From NCBI GenBank assembly GCA_947452905.1, contig CANGEP010000004.1, positions 1 through 64,000 of the forward strand: a stretch of 64,000 bases of DNA. Reading direction: 5' to 3'. This DNA is from Bacteroidota bacterium. GTDB lineage: Bacteria > Bacteroidota > Bacteroidia > Chitinophagales > Chitinophagaceae. Of the stretch, positions 41,633 to 48,771 are shown in pieces. The position numbers and the translations under genes were made by a program. The notes under the pieces are model-generated. The model worked only from the letters and a program-made list of their open reading frames with translations. It did not search any database and was not told where the DNA came from. Numbering within the stretch: the stretch's first letter is position 1; the number at the start of each line of letters is the position of its first letter.

Positions 41633-42655
41633 TTATGAATACAACTTTATAAGTTTATATAATGTTTTCATGGATATGGTCTCTGTTACTGCTTTACCTA
41701 TTTTAGTAAGTAAAACATACTGCATACCCTTGGCAGCATTCTTTTTATCTTTCTGCATTATTTCCATAGCTGCATCTACATCAAAATGCATAGCAGTAGG
41801 TAATCCATATTTTTTAAAGGCTTCTACCAATAATCCTACTTCGGAAAATCCATTTAGCACTTGAGAAATTTTAGCCGCATACACCATACCTATACTAATA
41901 GCATGCCCATGTAATAAAGCATGTTCGTTTTCAATGGCATGCCCAAGTGTGTGTCCAAAATTTAACAGTTTACGATCTCCTTTTTCAAATTCATCTTGCT
42001 GAACCACTTTGGCTTTGATCATCAAGTTTTTTTCGATAAGCGTAATTAATGCTTTTCTATTTTTTTGATAAAAAACCAAATCATGACTTGCTAACTCTTT
42101 CATCATCTTGGCATCCTTAATGGCAGCATGTTTGATAACTTCTGCAAAACCATTCTCCCATTGATGATGGGGCAGCGATGCTAAAAAGCTAAAATCGTAT
42201 AATAAGAACTGAGGCTGTCTAATAAGCCCCACCATGTTTTTATACAAACCTACATCAATGCCATTTTTTCCTCCAATGGATGCATCTACCATGGCAAGAA
42301 TAGTAGTAGGTACAAAACCTACTGCCACTCCTCTCATATAAATTCCTGCCACATACCCAACCATATCTGTTACTACGCCTCCTCCTACTCCAATAAGGAT
42401 AGTTTGACGATTAGCTCCAAAATTAAGTAAGGCTTCGATGATAAATTCAACAGTAGCTTGATGCTTATGTTCTTCGCCAGCAGGAATAACAATTGTCTTT
42501 TTACGTGCAAACTTTTTTTCATGCAATGCATAAACATTCTCATCAGTGATATAGATCGCGTCTTGGCTACCTATAATTTTAGTAATGGATGCAAACTTTC
42601 CGTCAATAATAAAATTGACAACAGTACTCGAAAATTTAAGTTTTACAGTTTTCAT
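41633..42655 (-). CDS. aroB: 3-dehydroquinate synthase
   Basis: 340 residues. NAD-binding IPAGEEHKHQATVEFI and GGGVVTDMVGYVAGIYMRGV with FVPTTILAMVDASIGGKNGID are followed by metal-ligand motifs GFAEVIKHA and NFGHTLGHAIE. The enzyme makes the first ring of the shikimate pathway from DAHP. It lies eight bases after the DAHP synthase gene and overlaps none. Confidence 0.96.
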   Translation of the reverse strand: MKTVKLKFSSTVVNFIIDGKFASITKIIGSQDAIYITDENVYALHEKKFARKKTIVIPAGEEHKHQATVEFIIEALLNFGANRQTILIGVGGGVVTDMVGYVAGIYMRGVAVGFVPTTILAMVDASIGGKNGIDVGLYKNMVGLIRQPQFLLYDFSFLASLPHHQWENGFAEVIKHAAIKDAKMMKELASHDLVFYQKNRKALITLIEKNLMIKAKVVQQDEFEKGDRKLLNFGHTLGHAIENEHALLHGHAISIGMVYAAKISQVLNGFSEVGLLVEAFKKYGLPTAMHFDVDAAMEIMQKDKKNAAKGMQYVLLTKIGKAVTETISMKTLYKLIKLYS

Positions 42656-42663
42656 GTAAATAA

Positions 42664-43749
42664 TTAGTTATTCATTATTTTATTCTGTTGGTTAATACTT
42701 TCCATATGAACGGCGTCCATGTATTTGGTAATAAAATCTTCACTCAATCCCATTTTATTGCCCTTAACCACTGCACGTTCTAATATTTCATTCCAACGAT
42801 TAGTTTGTAAAATTGTGATATCGTTGTTCTTTTTATATTCTCCAATTTTTTGGGCTACTTTCATGCGTGTAGATAATACTTGCAACAACTCGTCATCTAA
42901 CTGATTAATTTGTTGGCGGAATTTTTCTAATGCACTATGGAAATCCTCATTGGCAACGTCTTCTTTTCTCCAAGTCATGCTTCCCAACATTTGCTTTAAA
43001 ACCTCAGGTGTAATTTGTTGCTTAGCATCACTCCAAGCATTATCAGGATCAACATGTGACTCAATAATTAACCCATCGAAATCTAAATCAATAGCTTGTT
43101 GAGCCACTGCTTGTAAAATATCTCTACGACCACAAATATGAGAAGGATCGTTTATCATTGGAACACCAGGAAAACGACGTTTCATCTCGATAGCCAAATG
43201 CCACATGGGTGCATTACGGAATTCTGTATTACCATATGAACTAAATCCTCTATGGATTAATCCTAAATCTTCGATACCTGCTTTGGCAATACGCTCCATT
43301 CCACCTACCCATAATTCTAAATCTGGATTTAAAGGGTTTTTGATTAATACAGGAACTTTAACACCTCTTAATGCATCTGCAATTTCTTGCACACTAAATG
43401 GATTCACAGTAGTTCTTGCACCTACCCATAAAACATCAACATCAAAATGCAAAGCATCTTCTACTTGTTTAGCAGTTGCCACTTCAACAGCTACTGGCAT
43501 ACCAGTTTCTTTTTTTGCTTGCTGTAACCAAGGCAACCCTTTAGTGCCAATCCCTTCAAAACTTCCAGGACGAGTTCTAGGTTTCCAAATACCAGCTCGC
43601 ATAATATCAACTTTGCCTGTGGCAGCTAAACCACGAGCAGTAGCCATTACTTGTTCTTCTGTTTCTGCACTACAAGGACCAGAAATAATTAATGGTGCTT
43701 TTTTTAAGAGTGCGCTTACTTTTTGTTGTTGTTCAGTTAAAGTTCCCAT
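42664..43749 (-). CDS. DAHP synthase fused to chorismate mutase
   Basis: 361 residues from ATG at 43749 (MGTLTEQQQKVSALL); an in-frame TTG nine bases upstream is less likely. Residues about 15-255 form the DAHP synthase barrel (PLIISGPCSAETEEQ, RAGIWKPRTRPGSFEG, LIHRGFSSYG, DPSHICGRRDI, LIIESHVDPDNAWSDAKQQ). Residues about 270-355 are an AroQ-type chorismate mutase (FRQQINQLDDELLQVLSTRMKVAQKIGEYK, DFITKYMDAVHMESI). It combines the first shikimate step with the branch step to prephenate; the mutase part may also serve for feedback inhibition. The fusion is normal in Bacteroidota. Confidence 0.95.
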   Translation of the reverse strand: MGTLTEQQQKVSALLKKAPLIISGPCSAETEEQVMATARGLAATGKVDIMRAGIWKPRTRPGSFEGIGTKGLPWLQQAKKETGMPVAVEVATAKQVEDALHFDVDVLWVGARTTVNPFSVQEIADALRGVKVPVLIKNPLNPDLELWVGGMERIAKAGIEDLGLIHRGFSSYGNTEFRNAPMWHLAIEMKRRFPGVPMINDPSHICGRRDILQAVAQQAIDLDFDGLIIESHVDPDNAWSDAKQQITPEVLKQMLGSMTWRKEDVANEDFHSALEKFRQQINQLDDELLQVLSTRMKVAQKIGEYKKNNDITILQTNRWNEILERAVVKGNKMGLSEDFITKYMDAVHMESINQQNKIMNN

Positions 43750-43795
43750 TTTAGCCAATTTTAAATATTTGAATTATTGTTTTTATATGAATGTA

Positions 43796-45601
43796 TTAAC
43801 CTTCGTTTTTATTACTAAAACCACGAGGGCCGCCACTATCTGCATCGTTCATACGAATACGGCGTCCTTTGTAATTTTTCCCATCTATAGCACCAATCAT
43901 TTTCTTGGCTGCTCCAGATTCGATTTCAACCCAGCTATTCATATCTCTCATATCAATTTTACCTAGCACTTCTTTTTTAAGATCGCTCATATCTAATATA
44001 AATTGCAAGAAGCTCGCTTTATAAAAACCATCTTTAGTGCCTAGGTTTACAAATAGTCTTGTGGTACCTGCAGTACCTCTTGACTGACTACGTCCACCAC
44101 GATCGGCTCTATCTCCACCACGATCACCACCACGACTTTGACTAGCGTATTCATTTCGACCTCTTTCACGATTACGATCTTGCATACCACCTATATCACG
44201 ACGGCCTTTTTCGGCAGCACGTATATTTAAGTCTTGTGCGTTTTCGTAATAGCTCAAGAAACGGTTAAATTCAAGTGCTGCAAAACGAGTTAAGATTTCT
44301 TCTTTACTCATATCAGCAAATTTTTCTGCCAACATAGGAACATAAGTTTCGTAATCACCATGACTCACATCTGTTGACATTAACTTATCCATTAAATGGA
44401 AAAACTGTTTACGACAAACATCTTTACCACTAGGGATATCTAATTTATGAAAAGTACATTTATTGATATTCTCAATTTGACGTAATCGGTAAGACTCTCT
44501 TGAATGTACAATTGAGATACAGTTGCCATGACTGCCCGCACGACCCGTACGACCACTTCTGTGAGTATATACTTCAACATCATCTGGCAATTCGTAATTA
44601 ATTACATGGGTAATGCCTTTTACATCAATACCTCTTGCTGCAACATCGGTTGCTATTAACAACTGTAAAGATTTATCTCTGAACTGACCCATTACTTTAT
44701 CACGTTGCGCCTGTGTTAAGTCGCCATGCAAAGCATCAATATCATATCCTTCACGTGTTAAACGTTGTGTGATCTCTTGTGCATCTGCTTTAGTACGCGT
44801 AAAAATAATACCATAAATACCTGGATTAAAATCGATGATACGTTTTAAGGTCTCATAACGATGTTGTGCAGAAGTTAAATAGTATTGATGATCAATGCTT
44901 TTATTGGTAGCATTAACTTTTCCAATAGTTACTTCTACTGGCTCTTTCATGTAACGCTTACTTACCTTTCTAATTTCAGGAGGCATCGTAGCACTAAACA
45001 ACCAAATACTTTCACGGTTAGGCGTATTTTTTAAGATAAACTCAATATCGTCTTGGAAGCCCATGTTTAACATCTCATCCGCTTCATCTAAAACTACATA
45101 TTCAATTTGCTCTAAATTAATGGCCTTGCGCTCAATTAAATCTATTAAACGACCAGGCGTAGCTACTACAATCTGAACACCTCTTTTTAAATCTCTGATT
45201 TGCATTCCTATAGAAGTACCTCCATAAACTGCTAATACTTGTAAACCTGAAACATGCTTTTTAAACAAGTTAATTTCGTTCACAATTTGCATACACAATT
45301 CACGTGTAGGGCAAACCACTAATGCTTGTGGATATTTATCGGCTGTTTTAATTAATTGAATTAAAGGAAGGCCGAAAGCTGCTGTTTTACCAGTACCTGT
45401 TTGTGCTAGTCCAATAAAATCTTTTGTACCGCTAATTAATACTGGTATTGAACGCTCCTGAATTTCAGTAGCATGTGTATAACCCAATTCTGTTACAGAT
45501 TTCACCAATTGTTCGTTCACCCCTAGTTCAGCAAAAGTCTTTTTTGTTTTTACTGCTTCTATTAATTCATTTTTTGTATCCATCTCTTCTATTTTCTTCA
45601 T
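43796..45601 (-). CDS. DEAD-box RNA helicase with DbpA-like C-terminal domain
   Basis: 601 residues. The Q motif (TFAELGVNEQLVKSVTELGYTHATEIQERSIP), AQTGTGKTAAFGLP, PTRELCMQI, DEADEMLNMGF, SATMP and HRSGRTGRAG are all intact. After a Gly/Arg/Asp-rich linker (RGGDRGGDRADRGGRSQSRG) comes a DbpA/CsdA-type RNA-binding domain (TTRLFVNLGTKDGFYKASFLQFILDM). It remodels structured RNA in ribosome assembly or decay, often in the cold. It sits inside the aromatic block, 34 bases after tyrA and 46 before the DAHP synthase, an unrelated function in this setting. Confidence 0.95.
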   Translation of the reverse strand: MKKIEEMDTKNELIEAVKTKKTFAELGVNEQLVKSVTELGYTHATEIQERSIPVLISGTKDFIGLAQTGTGKTAAFGLPLIQLIKTADKYPQALVVCPTRELCMQIVNEINLFKKHVSGLQVLAVYGGTSIGMQIRDLKRGVQIVVATPGRLIDLIERKAINLEQIEYVVLDEADEMLNMGFQDDIEFILKNTPNRESIWLFSATMPPEIRKVSKRYMKEPVEVTIGKVNATNKSIDHQYYLTSAQHRYETLKRIIDFNPGIYGIIFTRTKADAQEITQRLTREGYDIDALHGDLTQAQRDKVMGQFRDKSLQLLIATDVAARGIDVKGITHVINYELPDDVEVYTHRSGRTGRAGSHGNCISIVHSRESYRLRQIENINKCTFHKLDIPSGKDVCRKQFFHLMDKLMSTDVSHGDYETYVPMLAEKFADMSKEEILTRFAALEFNRFLSYYENAQDLNIRAAEKGRRDIGGMQDRNRERGRNEYASQSRGGDRGGDRADRGGRSQSRGTAGTTRLFVNLGTKDGFYKASFLQFILDMSDLKKEVLGKIDMRDMNSWVEIESGAAKKMIGAIDGKNYKGRRIRMNDADSGGPRGFSNKNEG

Positions 45602-45634: not shown

Positions 45635-46474
45635 TTATTTTAAGATTCTTTTAATCCCATTCGCATTTTCAATCAAGTCCGACAAGTATTCAAAATTTTC
45701 TTTTTCCAAACAAGACTTGAATTTTCTTAATTGACTGATATGCTCATTTAAAACATCTAATACATTTTCTTTGTTTTGCATGAAGATCGGCACCCAAGTA
45801 GCTGCATTGGACTTAGCCAAACGCACAGTACTATCAAAACCTCCACTCGCTAATTCAAAAATATTATCAGACTCTTTCTCCTTCTCTAACACGGTATTCG
45901 CCAGCGCAAAAGAAGTAATATGTGAGATATGACTCACATAAGCCACATGAATGTCATGTTTAGTAGCATTCATGTATACAATATGCATTCCTAAAGTTTT
46001 ATACAAACGCTCTACTGTTAATAGTGCATCCGCATCTACTTGTTCTTTATTGCATATTACTGTTGCTTTATTTTCAAAAGCATCGCTTTGTGCAGCACTA
46101 GGACCACTAAACTCAGTTCCCCACATAGGATGTGATGGAACAAATCTTCCTTTTTTAGCATGCGCGCTGGCTATTTGCGCCACAGCTTCTTTGGTGGATC
46201 CTAAATCAAAAACGATTTGTTTGTCAACTAAATCTAAAACTAAAGGCAATAATTTTTCGGCAGTATTAACAGGCGTTGCAATGGCAATCACATCAGAAAG
46301 CTTTACAGCATCTTCCAATGTCATGATCTCATCTACAATACCCAATTTTAATGCATCGGCTTGGTGGTTAGGATTGTTGTCTACGCCAATGACGTTCGAA
46401 ACAAAGCCTTTGCTTTTCAATGACAAAGCCAATGACCCCCCCATTAATCCAATTCCAATAACTGCTAAACGCAT
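45635..46474 (-). CDS. tyrA: prephenate dehydrogenase
   Basis: 279 residues. An N-terminal NAD(P)-binding fold (LAVIGIGLMGGSLALSLKSKG; DVIAIATPVNT; IVFDLGSTKEAV) leads to the catalytic segment FVPSHPMWGTEFSGPSAA and a helical C-terminal domain (HVAYVSHISHITSFALAN; LASGGFDSTVRLAKSN). It makes 4-hydroxyphenylpyruvate on the tyrosine branch. There is no ACT domain. The start overlaps the aminotransferase stop by ten bases, indicating coupled translation. Confidence 0.95.
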   Translation of the reverse strand: MRLAVIGIGLMGGSLALSLKSKGFVSNVIGVDNNPNHQADALKLGIVDEIMTLEDAVKLSDVIAIATPVNTAEKLLPLVLDLVDKQIVFDLGSTKEAVAQIASAHAKKGRFVPSHPMWGTEFSGPSAAQSDAFENKATVICNKEQVDADALLTVERLYKTLGMHIVYMNATKHDIHVAYVSHISHITSFALANTVLEKEKESDNIFELASGGFDSTVRLAKSNAATWVPIFMQNKENVLDVLNEHISQLRKFKSCLEKENFEYLSDLIENANGIKRILK

Positions 46475-47628
46475 GCTTTTACTCTTTTAATTGCTTCATT
46501 AAATTTTTCCATTGAGCCGCATAAACTCACACGGATGTAATTATTACCTGCCGAACCAAAAATCCCACCAGGTGTAATAAAGACATTCGCATCATACAAC
46601 ACCTTATCGCTTAATGCATACCCATCTTTATAGCTTACTGGAATTTTAGCCCAAACAAACATCCCTACTTGTTGCTTCGAATAGGCACATCCCAATGTGT
46701 CTAATAATTCGTATACTTTTTCGCGACGCTCGGCATAAACTTGATTTACTGAATCATACCAAGATTTATCTAAGCTTAATGCCTTCGCCGCTGCTAATTG
46801 CACAGGTAAAAACATACCACTATCCATATTTGATTTAAATCTTAATATTTCGTTGACTCTTTCTTCGGCAGCAATCAACATACCTACTCTCCAACCAGCC
46901 ATATTTTGACTTTTACTTAAAGAGTTTAATTCAATCACTACTTCTTTCGCTCCTTCAATTGATAATAAGCTTTCAGGCTTTTCATTTAAAATGAATGCAT
47001 AAGGATTGTCGTGACAAATTAATATTTGATGCTGCTTACCAAATGCTACTAATTTTTCAAAGAGTGCTTTAGTTGGCATTTGACCTGTAGGCATGTGCGG
47101 ATAGTTCACCCACATCATTTTCACTTTTGATAAATCTGTTTTTTCTAAATTTTCAAAGTCAGGCGCCCAATTGTTCTCGGCAGTTAACTCATAATATAGC
47201 GGGGTGCCCCCTGCTAGTTTTACTGCACTTGTATAAGTAGGATAACCAGGATTTGGAATTAACACCTGATCCCCTTCATTTAAATAGGTCATACAAATAT
47301 GCATGATCCCCTCTTTGCTACCGAGTAATGGAAGCACTTCTGTTGCTGGATTAATATTATCAACCTGATAATACTTTTTATACCACTCGGCAATAGCTTC
47401 TCTCAAAACTGGAGAGCCCTTATAAGATTGATACCCATGTACATTATCTTTTGCTGCCACTTCGTTTAAAGTTGCTAGCACTGATGGATGCGGTGGTAAA
47501 TCTGGACTTCCAATTCCCAGATTTATTATTTGCTTACCTGCTTTATTGAGTTCGTCAATCTCACGCAGTTTGGTAGCAAAATAATATTCACCAATACCCT
47601 CTAATCTATTTGATAATGTTAGGTTCAT
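46465..47628 (-). CDS. PLP-dependent aminotransferase of the aromatic block
   Basis: 387 residues of the class I/II aminotransferase family. Motifs: INLGIGSPDLPPHPSV, LLGSKEGIMHICMTYLNEGD, IPNPGYPTYTSAV, WVNYPHMPTGQMP, the PLP lysine in ELNSLSKSQNMAGWRVGM, and a C-terminal Arg in NYIRVSLCG. Its place between pheA (two bases) and tyrA (ten-base overlap) suggests it transaminates phenylpyruvate and 4-hydroxyphenylpyruvate to Phe and Tyr, or prephenate. The specificity cannot be read from sequence alone. Confidence 0.92.
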   Translation of the reverse strand: MNLTLSNRLEGIGEYYFATKLREIDELNKAGKQIINLGIGSPDLPPHPSVLATLNEVAAKDNVHGYQSYKGSPVLREAIAEWYKKYYQVDNINPATEVLPLLGSKEGIMHICMTYLNEGDQVLIPNPGYPTYTSAVKLAGGTPLYYELTAENNWAPDFENLEKTDLSKVKMMWVNYPHMPTGQMPTKALFEKLVAFGKQHQILICHDNPYAFILNEKPESLLSIEGAKEVVIELNSLSKSQNMAGWRVGMLIAAEERVNEILRFKSNMDSGMFLPVQLAAAKALSLDKSWYDSVNQVYAERREKVYELLDTLGCAYSKQQVGMFVWAKIPVSYKDGYALSDKVLYDANVFITPGGIFGSAGNNYIRVSLCGSMEKFNEAIKRVKACV

Positions 47629-47630
47629 AA

Positions 47631-48467
47631 TTAGCCTTTTACCACTTTACCTTTTTTATACAATCCAAAAACTTTAAAACTATTGGTGCTCGTTTTTACC
47701 GACTCCAACACTTTTTCAATTTGTTTATTATTTTCAAATTCTAAATCCGCATAAAACCCATATTTAAAATTACTTCCTGGTATGGGCATACTTTGCAACT
47801 TGCTTAAGTTTACGCCACCTTGTGAAATTTTAGCTAACACTTTTGACAAAATACCTTTTGAGTGATCGGTCTGGAAATAGACAGAAGCTTTATTGGCTCC
47901 TTCTATATTTACCTTGGTTTTAGTAGGCACTAAAATTAAAAAGCGAGTGATATTATTTTTTAAAGTATGAATATCAGGGGCTATTATTTCTAAATTATAT
48001 AATTGCGCTGCCAACTTTGATGCAATGGCTGCAATATGTTTGCTTTTATGCTGATGCACCAATTTGGCGCTGAGTGCGGTATCCTCAGATTCTACCAATT
48101 TAAAATCATTTTGCTCTAAATAATCCAAGCATTGCAAAATTGCCATGGGGTGACTATGCACTTCTTTAATATCGGAGAGTTTAACTCCTGGATTAACCAT
48201 TAAATTTTGGCTTATAGATAAATACACTTCACCAATTACTTGAAGATTGCTTTTTTGCAATAAGTTGTAATTAGGCAAAATGCTACCTGCGATAGAATTC
48301 TCAATAGCCATGACTGCCCCATCCGATTGTTTGGGATCAGCTCCAATTTTTACTACTTCTCTAAAAGTATCGCAAGTGATTACCTCTACTGTTTTTCCAA
48401 AAAACTGCCTGGCTGCCACTTGGTGGAAACTACCCTCGTACCCTTGTATCGTTACTTTCTTGTTCAT
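47631..48467 (-). CDS. pheA: prephenate dehydratase
   Basis: 278 residues. The catalytic domain spans residues 1-about 180 (VTIQGYEGSFHQVAARQFFG; AIENSIAGSILPNYNLL; NNITRFLILVP, the TRF catalytic motif). A C-terminal ACT domain follows (ASVYFQTDHSKGILSKVLAKISQGGVNLSKLQSMPIPG), the phenylalanine-sensing part; the usual ESRP segment is LQSMPIP here. No chorismate mutase domain is attached, since that activity is on the DAHP synthase fusion. It is the first structural gene after the leader and attenuator at 48472-48606, with its ATG five bases after the terminator T-run. Confidence 0.95.
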   Translation of the reverse strand: MNKKVTIQGYEGSFHQVAARQFFGKTVEVITCDTFREVVKIGADPKQSDGAVMAIENSIAGSILPNYNLLQKSNLQVIGEVYLSISQNLMVNPGVKLSDIKEVHSHPMAILQCLDYLEQNDFKLVESEDTALSAKLVHQHKSKHIAAIASKLAAQLYNLEIIAPDIHTLKNNITRFLILVPTKTKVNIEGANKASVYFQTDHSKGILSKVLAKISQGGVNLSKLQSMPIPGSNFKYGFYADLEFENNKQIEKVLESVKTSTNSFKVFGLYKKGKVVKG

Positions 48468-48471
48468 CCTT

Positions 48472-48501
48472 AAAAAAAAATCCCGGCTGTTGAGGCCGGG
48501 A
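48472..48501 (-). terminator. attenuator terminator before pheA
   Basis: On the minus strand TCCCGGC (48501-48495), a seven-base loop, GCCGGGA (48487-48481) and nine T (48480-48472). It lies between the leader peptide stop (48523) and the pheA ATG (48467), so it would end transcription before the operon unless prevented. The 5' arm CCCGGC can instead pair with an identical GCCGGG copy at 48548-48543 within the leader reading frame. GTAT (48540-48537) with ATAC (48507-48504) extends that alternative stem. Confidence 0.92.
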
Positions 48502-48522
48502 TTGTATATTTAGTTATTTCGT

Positions 48523-48606
48523 TTATGCTTTTACAAATACTACCCGGCTACTTTGATTAAAGTAGAAATAAAAGAAAAAGTAAAACCAGTTGCTATTTGC
48601 TTTCAT
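48523..48606 (-). CDS. aromatic-rich leader peptide of the pheA operon
   Basis: A 27-codon ORF, ATG at 48606 and TAA at 48525-48523. Codons 7-16 encode WFYFFFYFYF: one Trp, six Phe and three Tyr in a row, with another Phe at codon 24. This is the form of a phenylalanine/tyrosine attenuation leader peptide. The ATG follows the -7 element TATCTTTG by only seven bases, so the message would be nearly leaderless. Codons 20-22 carry the GCCGGG that can pair with the 5' arm of the terminator. Known logic of attenuation: ribosomes stalled at Phe/Tyr codons leave that segment free and the terminator does not form. The peptide itself probably has no other function. Confidence 0.92.
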   Translation of the reverse strand: MKANSNWFYFFFYFYFNQSSRVVFVKA

Positions 48607-48613
48607 CGTGCTA

Positions 48614-48621
48614 CAAAGATA
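48614..48621 (-). promoter_or_regulatory. -7 promoter element of the pheA leader
   Basis: TATCTTTG on the minus strand matches TAnnTTTG and lies seven bases before the leader ATG. No good TTTG -33 element is seen 19-20 bases upstream; that region is instead taken by the repeats at 48619-48651. Confidence 0.8.
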
Positions 48622-48651
48622 GGCTAAAATGGCCTATTATAGGCTAAAATG
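48619..48651 (-). promoter_or_regulatory. direct repeat and palindrome over the pheA leader promoter
   Basis: ATAGGCTAAAATG occurs at 48619-48631 and 48639-48651 (plus-strand reading), spaced 20 bases, about two helical turns. Between and overlapping them, GCCTATTATAGGC (48632-48644) is a perfect 13-base palindrome. The first copy overlaps the -7 element. This looks like a regulator site, repressor or activator, in addition to attenuation. The regulator is unknown. Confidence 0.6.
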
Positions 48652-48726
48652 CCAAAGTTTTTTACATTTTACTAACATTTATTCGTATATCAACCTCCAA
48701 AACCTAGGTTGTTTTAAAAAAGAATA

Positions 48727-48771
48727 AAAAAAGCCCCCCTGTGGAAACAGGGCGGCTTAACGATTGCTTGC
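48727..48771 (-). terminator. intrinsic terminator with GCAAGCAATC motif after the small lipoprotein gene
   Basis: On the minus strand GCAAGCAATC (48771-48762), a short spacer, a twelve-pair G+C-rich stem with one C-C mismatch (48758-48731, loop TTCC) and a run of T. It has the same layout as 4014-4063 and 32839-32881. Confidence 0.85.

Follow-up and report, generated by a model that had tools for sequence, protein, structure and literature searches.

The DNA analysed here, a 64,000-nucleotide stretch from a genome of the family Chitinophagaceae (the window), carries on its minus strand a block of aromatic biosynthesis genes headed by pheA, and directly before pheA lies a very short open reading frame (ORF) in which ten codons in a row specify aromatic residues. 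The question that this locus raises is whether the small ORF is a regulatory device and, if it is, how it works and how widely it is shared. The initial annotation, made from the sequence alone, read it as a complete Phe/Tyr attenuator composed of leader peptide, antiterminator and terminator. The analysis described below gives a probability of about 0.93 to the reading of the pheA leader as a classical ribosome-mediated transcription attenuator.

The leader and the gene block that it precedes

The features of the locus, in the order in which they would be transcribed and with the basis of each in brackets, are as follows.

48614..48621, minus strand: -7 promoter element TATCTTTG, of the Bacteroidota sigma-A type TAnnTTTG (sequence; consensus from PMC9723704)
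48609, minus strand: predicted transcription start (A), giving a 5' UTR of 3 nt (box position of -12 to -5)
48523..48606, minus strand: leader peptide ORF MKANSNWFYFFFYFYFNQSSRVVFVKA, 27 codons plus stop (sequence, translation)
48559..48588, minus strand: aromatic run WFYFFFYFYF, codons 7-16, the presumed sensor (translation)
48577..48600, minus strand: region 1, 5' part of a predicted protector hairpin (MFE fold)
48533..48554, minus strand: region 2, putative 5' arm of the antiterminator, with GCCGGG at 48548-48543 and GTAT at 48540-48537 (sequence, pairing tests)
48495..48507, minus strand: region 3, with ATAC at 48507-48504 and CCCGGC at 48500-48495, predicted to pair with region 2 (antiterminator) or with region 4 (terminator) (sequence, pairing tests, folds)
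48479..48503, minus strand: terminator hairpin AATCCCGGC-CTCAACA-GCCGGGATT, regions 3:4 (folds, conservation)
48472..48480, minus strand: T9 tract of the intrinsic terminator (sequence)
47631..48467, minus strand: pheA, prephenate dehydratase (Pfam PDT, E 1.3e-54)
46465..47628, minus strand: class I/II aminotransferase (Pfam)
45635..46474, minus strand: tyrA, prephenate dehydrogenase (Pfam PDH_N, PDH_C)
43796..45601, minus strand: DEAD-box RNA helicase with a DbpA RNA-binding domain (Pfam DEAD, Helicase_C, DbpA)
42664..43758, minus strand: DAHP synthase fused to chorismate mutase (Pfam DAHP_synth_1, CM_2)
41633..42655, minus strand: aroB, 3-dehydroquinate synthase (Pfam DHQ_synthase)

All coordinates of the -7 box, the 27-codon ORF, the ten aromatic codons, the terminator with its nine T and the pheA ATG were verified on the minus strand, as were GCCGGG, CCCGGC and their GTAT/ATAC extensions. 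The leader ATG, at 48606, lies 7 nt past the TATCTTTG box, and the first codon of the aromatic run is the Trp codon. The terminator stem AATCCCGGC/GCCGGGATT has 7 bp plus two A-U pairs that use bases of the T run, and the pheA ATG (48467) follows downstream of T9 (48480-48472); at the level of sequence, an intrinsic terminator thus sits between the leader ORF and pheA, the first structural gene.

Some other elements of the region are worth recording. Two exact copies of TTTTAGCCTAT lie 20 bp apart at 48619-48629 and 48639-48649 (minus strand), the nearer one overlapping the -7 box, and variants are found at the equal position in close relatives, while matches with one mismatch are no commoner in the window than expected by chance; the pair is possibly a repressor site. 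Upstream of the leader promoter, terminator-like hairpins at 48733-48752 (minus strand) may end the preceding transcript. Within the gene block the odd member is the DEAD-box helicase, placed between tyrA and the DAHP synthase with gaps of 33 and 37 nt.

The arrangement of the leader is far beyond chance. Counting both strands, the window holds 848 short ATG ORFs (12-60 aa), of which the leader alone exceeds 7 aromatic codons in 10; a density of 7 in 10 was reached in none of 2000 dinucleotide shuffles of positions 48440-48720. The fold of the leader alone has a modest z-score of -1.99, with 6 of 200 shuffles folding equally well or better; the weight of the evidence is comparative. Scanning the window against Rfam gave no family at the gathering score, amino acid leaders and T-box included.

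Conservation of the leader and joint change of its arms

The search for PheA in genome contigs confirmed 214 relatives, of which the best 80 were used; their family, where named in the record, is Chitinophagaceae, and a few records carry names (Comamonas, Sphingobacterium) that suggest mislabelled bins. Upstream of pheA, 77 of these best 80 have an aromatic leader ORF, and the three loci in which none was found (L034, L049 and L062) hold only 160-186 nt of upstream DNA. Together with the window, the 77 make up 78 loci and 73 distinct leader sequences, and in all of them the terminator begins 18-37 nt past the leader stop codon. Many of the close relatives share an identical 27-aa peptide. In the 66 leaders that can be aligned on an R-V/F anchor, run positions mostly swap F and Y, with C or S also occurring at one position (15 of the 66), and the three residues after the run vary. 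The distance from the last aromatic codon to the core of region 2 is 10 nt in 66 of the 73 leaders and 8 nt in the other 7, and in these same seven the CCGGG core stands in a different reading frame (e.g., encoding K-P-G and not S-R-V); since CCGGG is kept across the frame change, it is the RNA and not the tail of the peptide that is conserved. Lack of conservation of the small ORF or of both stems in relatives had been named as an outcome that would speak against attenuation, and both the ORF and the stems turned out to be conserved.

The pairing between regions 2 and 3 was compared with pairings permuted among leaders, without correction for relatedness. In the close set, cognate duplexes average -17.7 kcal/mol and permuted ones -16.5, with none of 2000 permutations as good; for the 32 more diverged leaders the values are -19.7 and -17.5 kcal/mol (0 of 5000). 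An alignment of 40 sequences picked from the 73 distinct leaders has 98.1% of its cells paired for the terminator and 88.8% for the antiterminator, compared with 28.6-55.1% when the antiterminator is slid. The covariation scores of the two stems were reached by 0 and 2 of 500 shuffles. Less favourably, both-side changes, found in 3 of 9 and 4 of 10 pairs, were as frequent in 102 and 117 of the 500 shuffles, and extra pair types were as numerous in 349 and 69. RNAalifold, run on the same 40 sequences, returned the terminator alone. Within the close set the GC core hardly varies, as would be expected of three arms bound to change together, and the core is thereby little tested there.

Of the 147 Chitinophagaceae genomes searched with a covariance model of the leader, 102 gave a match, with 65 of 92 genera represented, and 45 gave none. 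Opening 26 of the 102 best matches (the 20 strongest and six weaker) revealed an aromatic leader in each, and 9 of 13 opened weak or second matches were also aromatic leaders. Matches L170, L173, L174 and L177 were rejected, being terminators without an aromatic leader.

For the class and the phylum, prephenate dehydratase was located in the genomes and the DNA upstream was read; in the class listing, 33 of 119 genomes have the gene. An aromatic leader with a strong terminator precedes it in 43 of the 57 class genomes sampled, a count that covers these two parts, region 2 duplexes having been computed without a cut-off; by the cut-offs chosen, the leader, the strong terminator or both are missing in the other 14. 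The first class set, comprising 37 of the 39 matching class members besides the source genome (five of them Chitinophagaceae), has both parts in 33. The second, of 20 new genomes, has both in 10, an aromatic peptide of 5 to 11 residues with one part weaker in three more, and no such leader in 7. Among 20 genomes of other classes of the phylum, picked from the listed matches and not at random, none was found to have an aromatic leader with a strong terminator. A putative aromatic leader attenuator is found in most of the checked class members that have prephenate dehydratase.

Across the class the terminator cores vary (e.g., CCCGG, CCTGA, CCTCG and CCCC), and the peptides share little besides the aromatic run. 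In the 33 leaders of the first class set, the best duplex of each leader with its own arm has a mean of -16.4 kcal/mol compared with -10.4 for permuted arms, and none of 10,000 permutations was as good, relatedness being uncorrected. The own arm ranks first in 10 of the 33 and among the best three in 24; it falls outside the best three in 9, and in L127 and L135 it ranks 14th.

Folding order, codon identity and competing explanations

Masked folds, in which the ribosome was modelled as covering 12 nt from the first base of the A-site codon, point to how the alternative hairpins might be chosen. Once codon 16, the last aromatic one, occupies the A site, region 2 is predicted to be just free. 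In a transcript that stops short of region 4, the folds pair region 3 with region 2 for each A-site codon tried (8, 12, 14 and 16), whereas a ribosome placed at the stop codon leaves 3:4 as the only pairing open to region 3. The initial annotation held that a ribosome stalled in the aromatic run would leave the GCCGGG arm copy free, which fits both these folds and the 10- or 8-nt spacing. In the complete leader, the equilibrium fold favours the terminator 3:4 even with a ribosome masking the aromatic codons, so antitermination would depend on the order of folding. The 1:2 hairpin is predicted in the complete leader and is absent from the ribosome-free transcript before region 4, which forms 2:3 instead; the protector would thus not be dominant until region 4 exists. 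Folds restricted to the ORF part of the leader have the core of region 2 paired upstream in 61 of 73 cases.

The conserved parts, the joint change of the arms and a spacing compatible with the ribosome footprint support attenuation, for which we infer the following course, from transcription start, stalling and the amino acids sensed to termination and read-through as far as aroB. RNA polymerase would begin some 3 nt upstream of the leader ATG, with ribosome loading almost at the 5' end. With charged tRNA-Phe or tRNA-Tyr (possibly tRNA-Trp) in short supply, the ribosome would stall in codons 7-16 and leave region 2 (AGCCGGGTAGTAT) exposed, which would then pair with region 3 (ATAC..CCCGGC) ahead of the synthesis of region 4. 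The terminator being blocked, the block of pheA, aminotransferase, tyrA, the helicase, DAHP synthase/chorismate mutase and aroB would be transcribed. When the aromatic tRNAs are charged, the ribosome would reach the stop codon and cover region 2, so that the 3:4 terminator would form and transcription would stop before pheA. In the absence of translation, the predicted 1:2 hairpin would sequester region 2 in the finished leader, also favouring termination.

Other amino acid genes of the source genome and its family carry leaders of the same kind. The source genome (G000) has two of them, both on contig C4. The his leader, MKLNNHIHHHHLLSKG (ATG at 94226; L226), precedes hisG, and the trp leader, MKTINNFWWWHTNSVGVL (ATG at 87957; L227), precedes trpE and has the TANNTTTG-N7-ATG spacing. 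Each has a terminator, that of the trp leader being AAACCCCGACA..TGTCGGGGTTT, and a region 2 that matches it. Within the family, hisG is present in 33 of 40 genomes, and 27 of 30 opened hisG loci have leaders with a His run, all 27 with GCTTAC within the called terminator arm. A WWW leader was found in 9 of 31 opened loci of the trp survey, which mixes trpE with related chorismate-binding genes, so that no rate is given. The identity of the leader codons, His before hisG and Trp before trpE, tracks the pathway.

Aromatic leaders may also be distributed over more than one gene or be doubled. In one genome (G303) they precede pheA (L171) and, separately, DAHP synthase (L172), and in another (G190) pheA (L175) and, separately, tyrA (L176), these genes being identified by resemblance to the proteins of the window. 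Tandem aromatic leaders with terminators lie before pheA in L169 (G268) and, by reading of the upstream DNA, in L180 (G182); in both, the first leader is like MQTQTTFGYFYGFYFFWYQK and the second like SLYFFYFFFYFFY. In the source genome no leader was seen before thrA, ilvD, leuA or pheS; upstream of thrA and of ilvD there seem to lie further genes in the same orientation. E. coli pheST carries an attenuator; unlike it, pheS of the source genome has none that could be seen. At leuA (L231, contig C9), a hairpin followed by TTTT lies about 30-55 nt upstream, shortly past a TAAATTTG box and with no leader peptide, and TATCTTCG-N4-ATG at the start of pheS (L230, contig C3) predicts a leaderless pheS transcript.

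Three other explanations of the leader were weighed, all of low probability. The leader could be translated and control exerted through loss of translation or through uncoupling of RNA polymerase from the ribosome, making it a general sensor of translation that terminates when loading is slow. The 1:2 hairpin predicted in the finished leader suits such a sensor, and a start so near the 5' end could make ribosome loading limiting. Against it stand an aromatic run that is maintained throughout the class although the neighbouring residues vary, and the His codons before hisG and Trp codons before trpE of the source genome; we give it very little credence. Slightly less probable still is that the conserved ORF encodes a functional small peptide acting elsewhere, with attenuation secondary. 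The identity of the 27-aa peptide in many close relatives and the precedent of peTrpL of Sinorhizobium meliloti (PMC7298713) speak for such a peptide; against it, little except the aromatic run is shared across the class, and in seven leaders the C-terminal part is read in another frame with the RNA core preserved. Least probable of all is a terminator that acts passively, or an RNA that binds a ligand or a protein (as a riboswitch or T-box would), the ORF being incidental. A strong intrinsic terminator would fit this view, which is opposed by the absence of any Rfam family at the gathering score in the window, by ten consecutive aromatic codons that never arise in shuffles and by the spacing of ORF, region 2 and terminator kept in relatives. 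Ribosome-mediated attenuation, as first proposed for this locus, is the reading that the comparative tests support.

A predicted near-leaderless start and the place of the leader among known attenuators

The initial annotation had also called the leader message nearly leaderless. In Flavobacterium psychrophilum the sigma-A box lies at -12 to -5 (PMC9723704), and by this rule the window leader has a predicted 5' UTR of 3 nt, a property that appears to be kept in Chitinophagaceae. A TAnnTTTG-type box ends 4-8 nt before the start codon in 73 of the 75 leaders that have sufficient upstream DNA, the window included, and the predicted 5' UTR is 0-4 nt in all 73, 57 of them having 3 nt. The same range of 0-4 nt is predicted for 17 of 20 Chitinophagaceae loci found with the covariance model and for 4 of the 5 Chitinophagaceae leaders of the first class set (17 nt in the fifth), and his leaders with a box have a predicted 0-6 nt in 21 of 25. 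Longer values are predicted elsewhere in the class. Three leaders of the source order in the first class set have 3, 4 and 31 nt; in the other orders of that set, 20 of 25 leaders have a slightly looser box and 6-25 nt, and six boxed leaders of the second set have 11-28 nt.

Short 5' UTRs are rare where they have been measured: those below 10 nt make up about 3.7% in Bacteroides thetaiotaomicron (PMC7366714), and leaderless transcripts 5.5% in F. psychrophilum (PMC9723704). Genome-wide, the source genome has 44 sites with TANNTTTG-N7-ATG spacing compared with 61 for a reversed-pattern control, so this spacing is no general feature of its genes, and among the 30 of these 44 sites that were opened, the phe/tyr and trp leaders were the only ones that read as attenuator-like. 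The predicted near-leaderless start of the leader in Chitinophagaceae is an unusual one. It is possible, at odds well short of even, that the phe/tyr, his and trp leader peptides of this family have moved to the extreme 5' end of the transcript and that the near-leaderless start is part of the mechanism. If this were true, such a start would ensure that ribosomes load at once in a phylum where Shine-Dalgarno pairing is hardly used, and would replace the longer leaders (predicted 6-28 nt, mostly 11-25) of the other orders of the class.

Leader-peptide attenuation is a textbook mechanism. In the enterobacterial pheL, pheST, trpL and hisL attenuators, a leader peptide with many residues of the regulated amino acid is combined with alternative hairpins (1:2, 2:3 and 3:4) and a terminator before the first structural gene. 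The window leader shares the peptide with them and, at the level of sequence, the terminator and the predicted alternative pairings 2:3 and 3:4. It differs in that no kinship in sequence is shown (no Rfam match), that its predicted 5' UTR is 3 nt, and that it would serve Phe and Tyr, with one Trp codon, and a mixed block of aromatic genes. The Bacteroid-trp RNA (RF01692) precedes trp genes, a different operon from that of the window, where it has no match. It has been described as a candidate cis element of Bacteroidetes (PMC2864571).

Closest to the window in phylum and gene are the structured 5' elements reported upstream of pheA and hisG in F. psychrophilum, in a study that mentions clues to leader-peptide attenuation at amino acid operons and, separately, the conservation of the pheA element in other Flavobacteriaceae (PMC9723704). 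In the parts of that account consulted, the pheA element comes with neither a leader sequence nor the assignment of a leader peptide, and there is no mention of Chitinophagaceae or of near-leaderless starts. For B. thetaiotaomicron there is a general remark on attenuation (PMC7366714); the main text of a survey of premature terminators makes no mention of terms such as Bacteroid, pheA or Flavobacter (PMC2965389), and a comparative study of attenuation by Lopatovskaya et al. (2010) is cited in PMC4833913. Within the portions of the literature consulted on attenuation or leader peptides in Bacteroidota, nothing more specific was found than the F. psychrophilum elements, the B. thetaiotaomicron remark and the Bacteroid-trp motif. 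To the remark in the initial annotation that few worked examples are known in Bacteroidota it should be added that a structured pheA element, and clues to leader peptides at amino acid operons, had already been reported in F. psychrophilum (PMC9723704).

Attenuator ORFs at or near the 5' end of the transcript have precedents in trpL of S. meliloti, a leaderless leader ORF (PMC7298713), and in the polycysteine ORFs of mycobacteria, reported to encode leaderless leader peptides (Canestrari et al. 2020). The leaders described here differ from them in that the predicted 5' UTR is mostly 3 nt and not 0, that they belong to Bacteroidota and that phe/tyr, his and trp leaders occur in one genome.

The mechanism of attenuation being known, it is the breadth in the class and the position of the leader that are the points of interest. 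The comparative evidence indicates that the pheA attenuator is almost certainly real and functional, and it offers a well-supported and widespread case of ribosome-mediated attenuation in Bacteroidia, for which the literature consulted gave only brief mentions. The attenuator would tie aromatic biosynthesis in Bacteroidia to tRNA charging. Since attenuation works only if the ribosome is closely coupled to RNA polymerase and initiation at the leader is reliable, it would be a direct reporter for both, which would be useful in a phylum with unusual promoters and little use of Shine-Dalgarno pairing, and the predicted near-leaderless starts provide a testable link between the mode of initiation and regulation.
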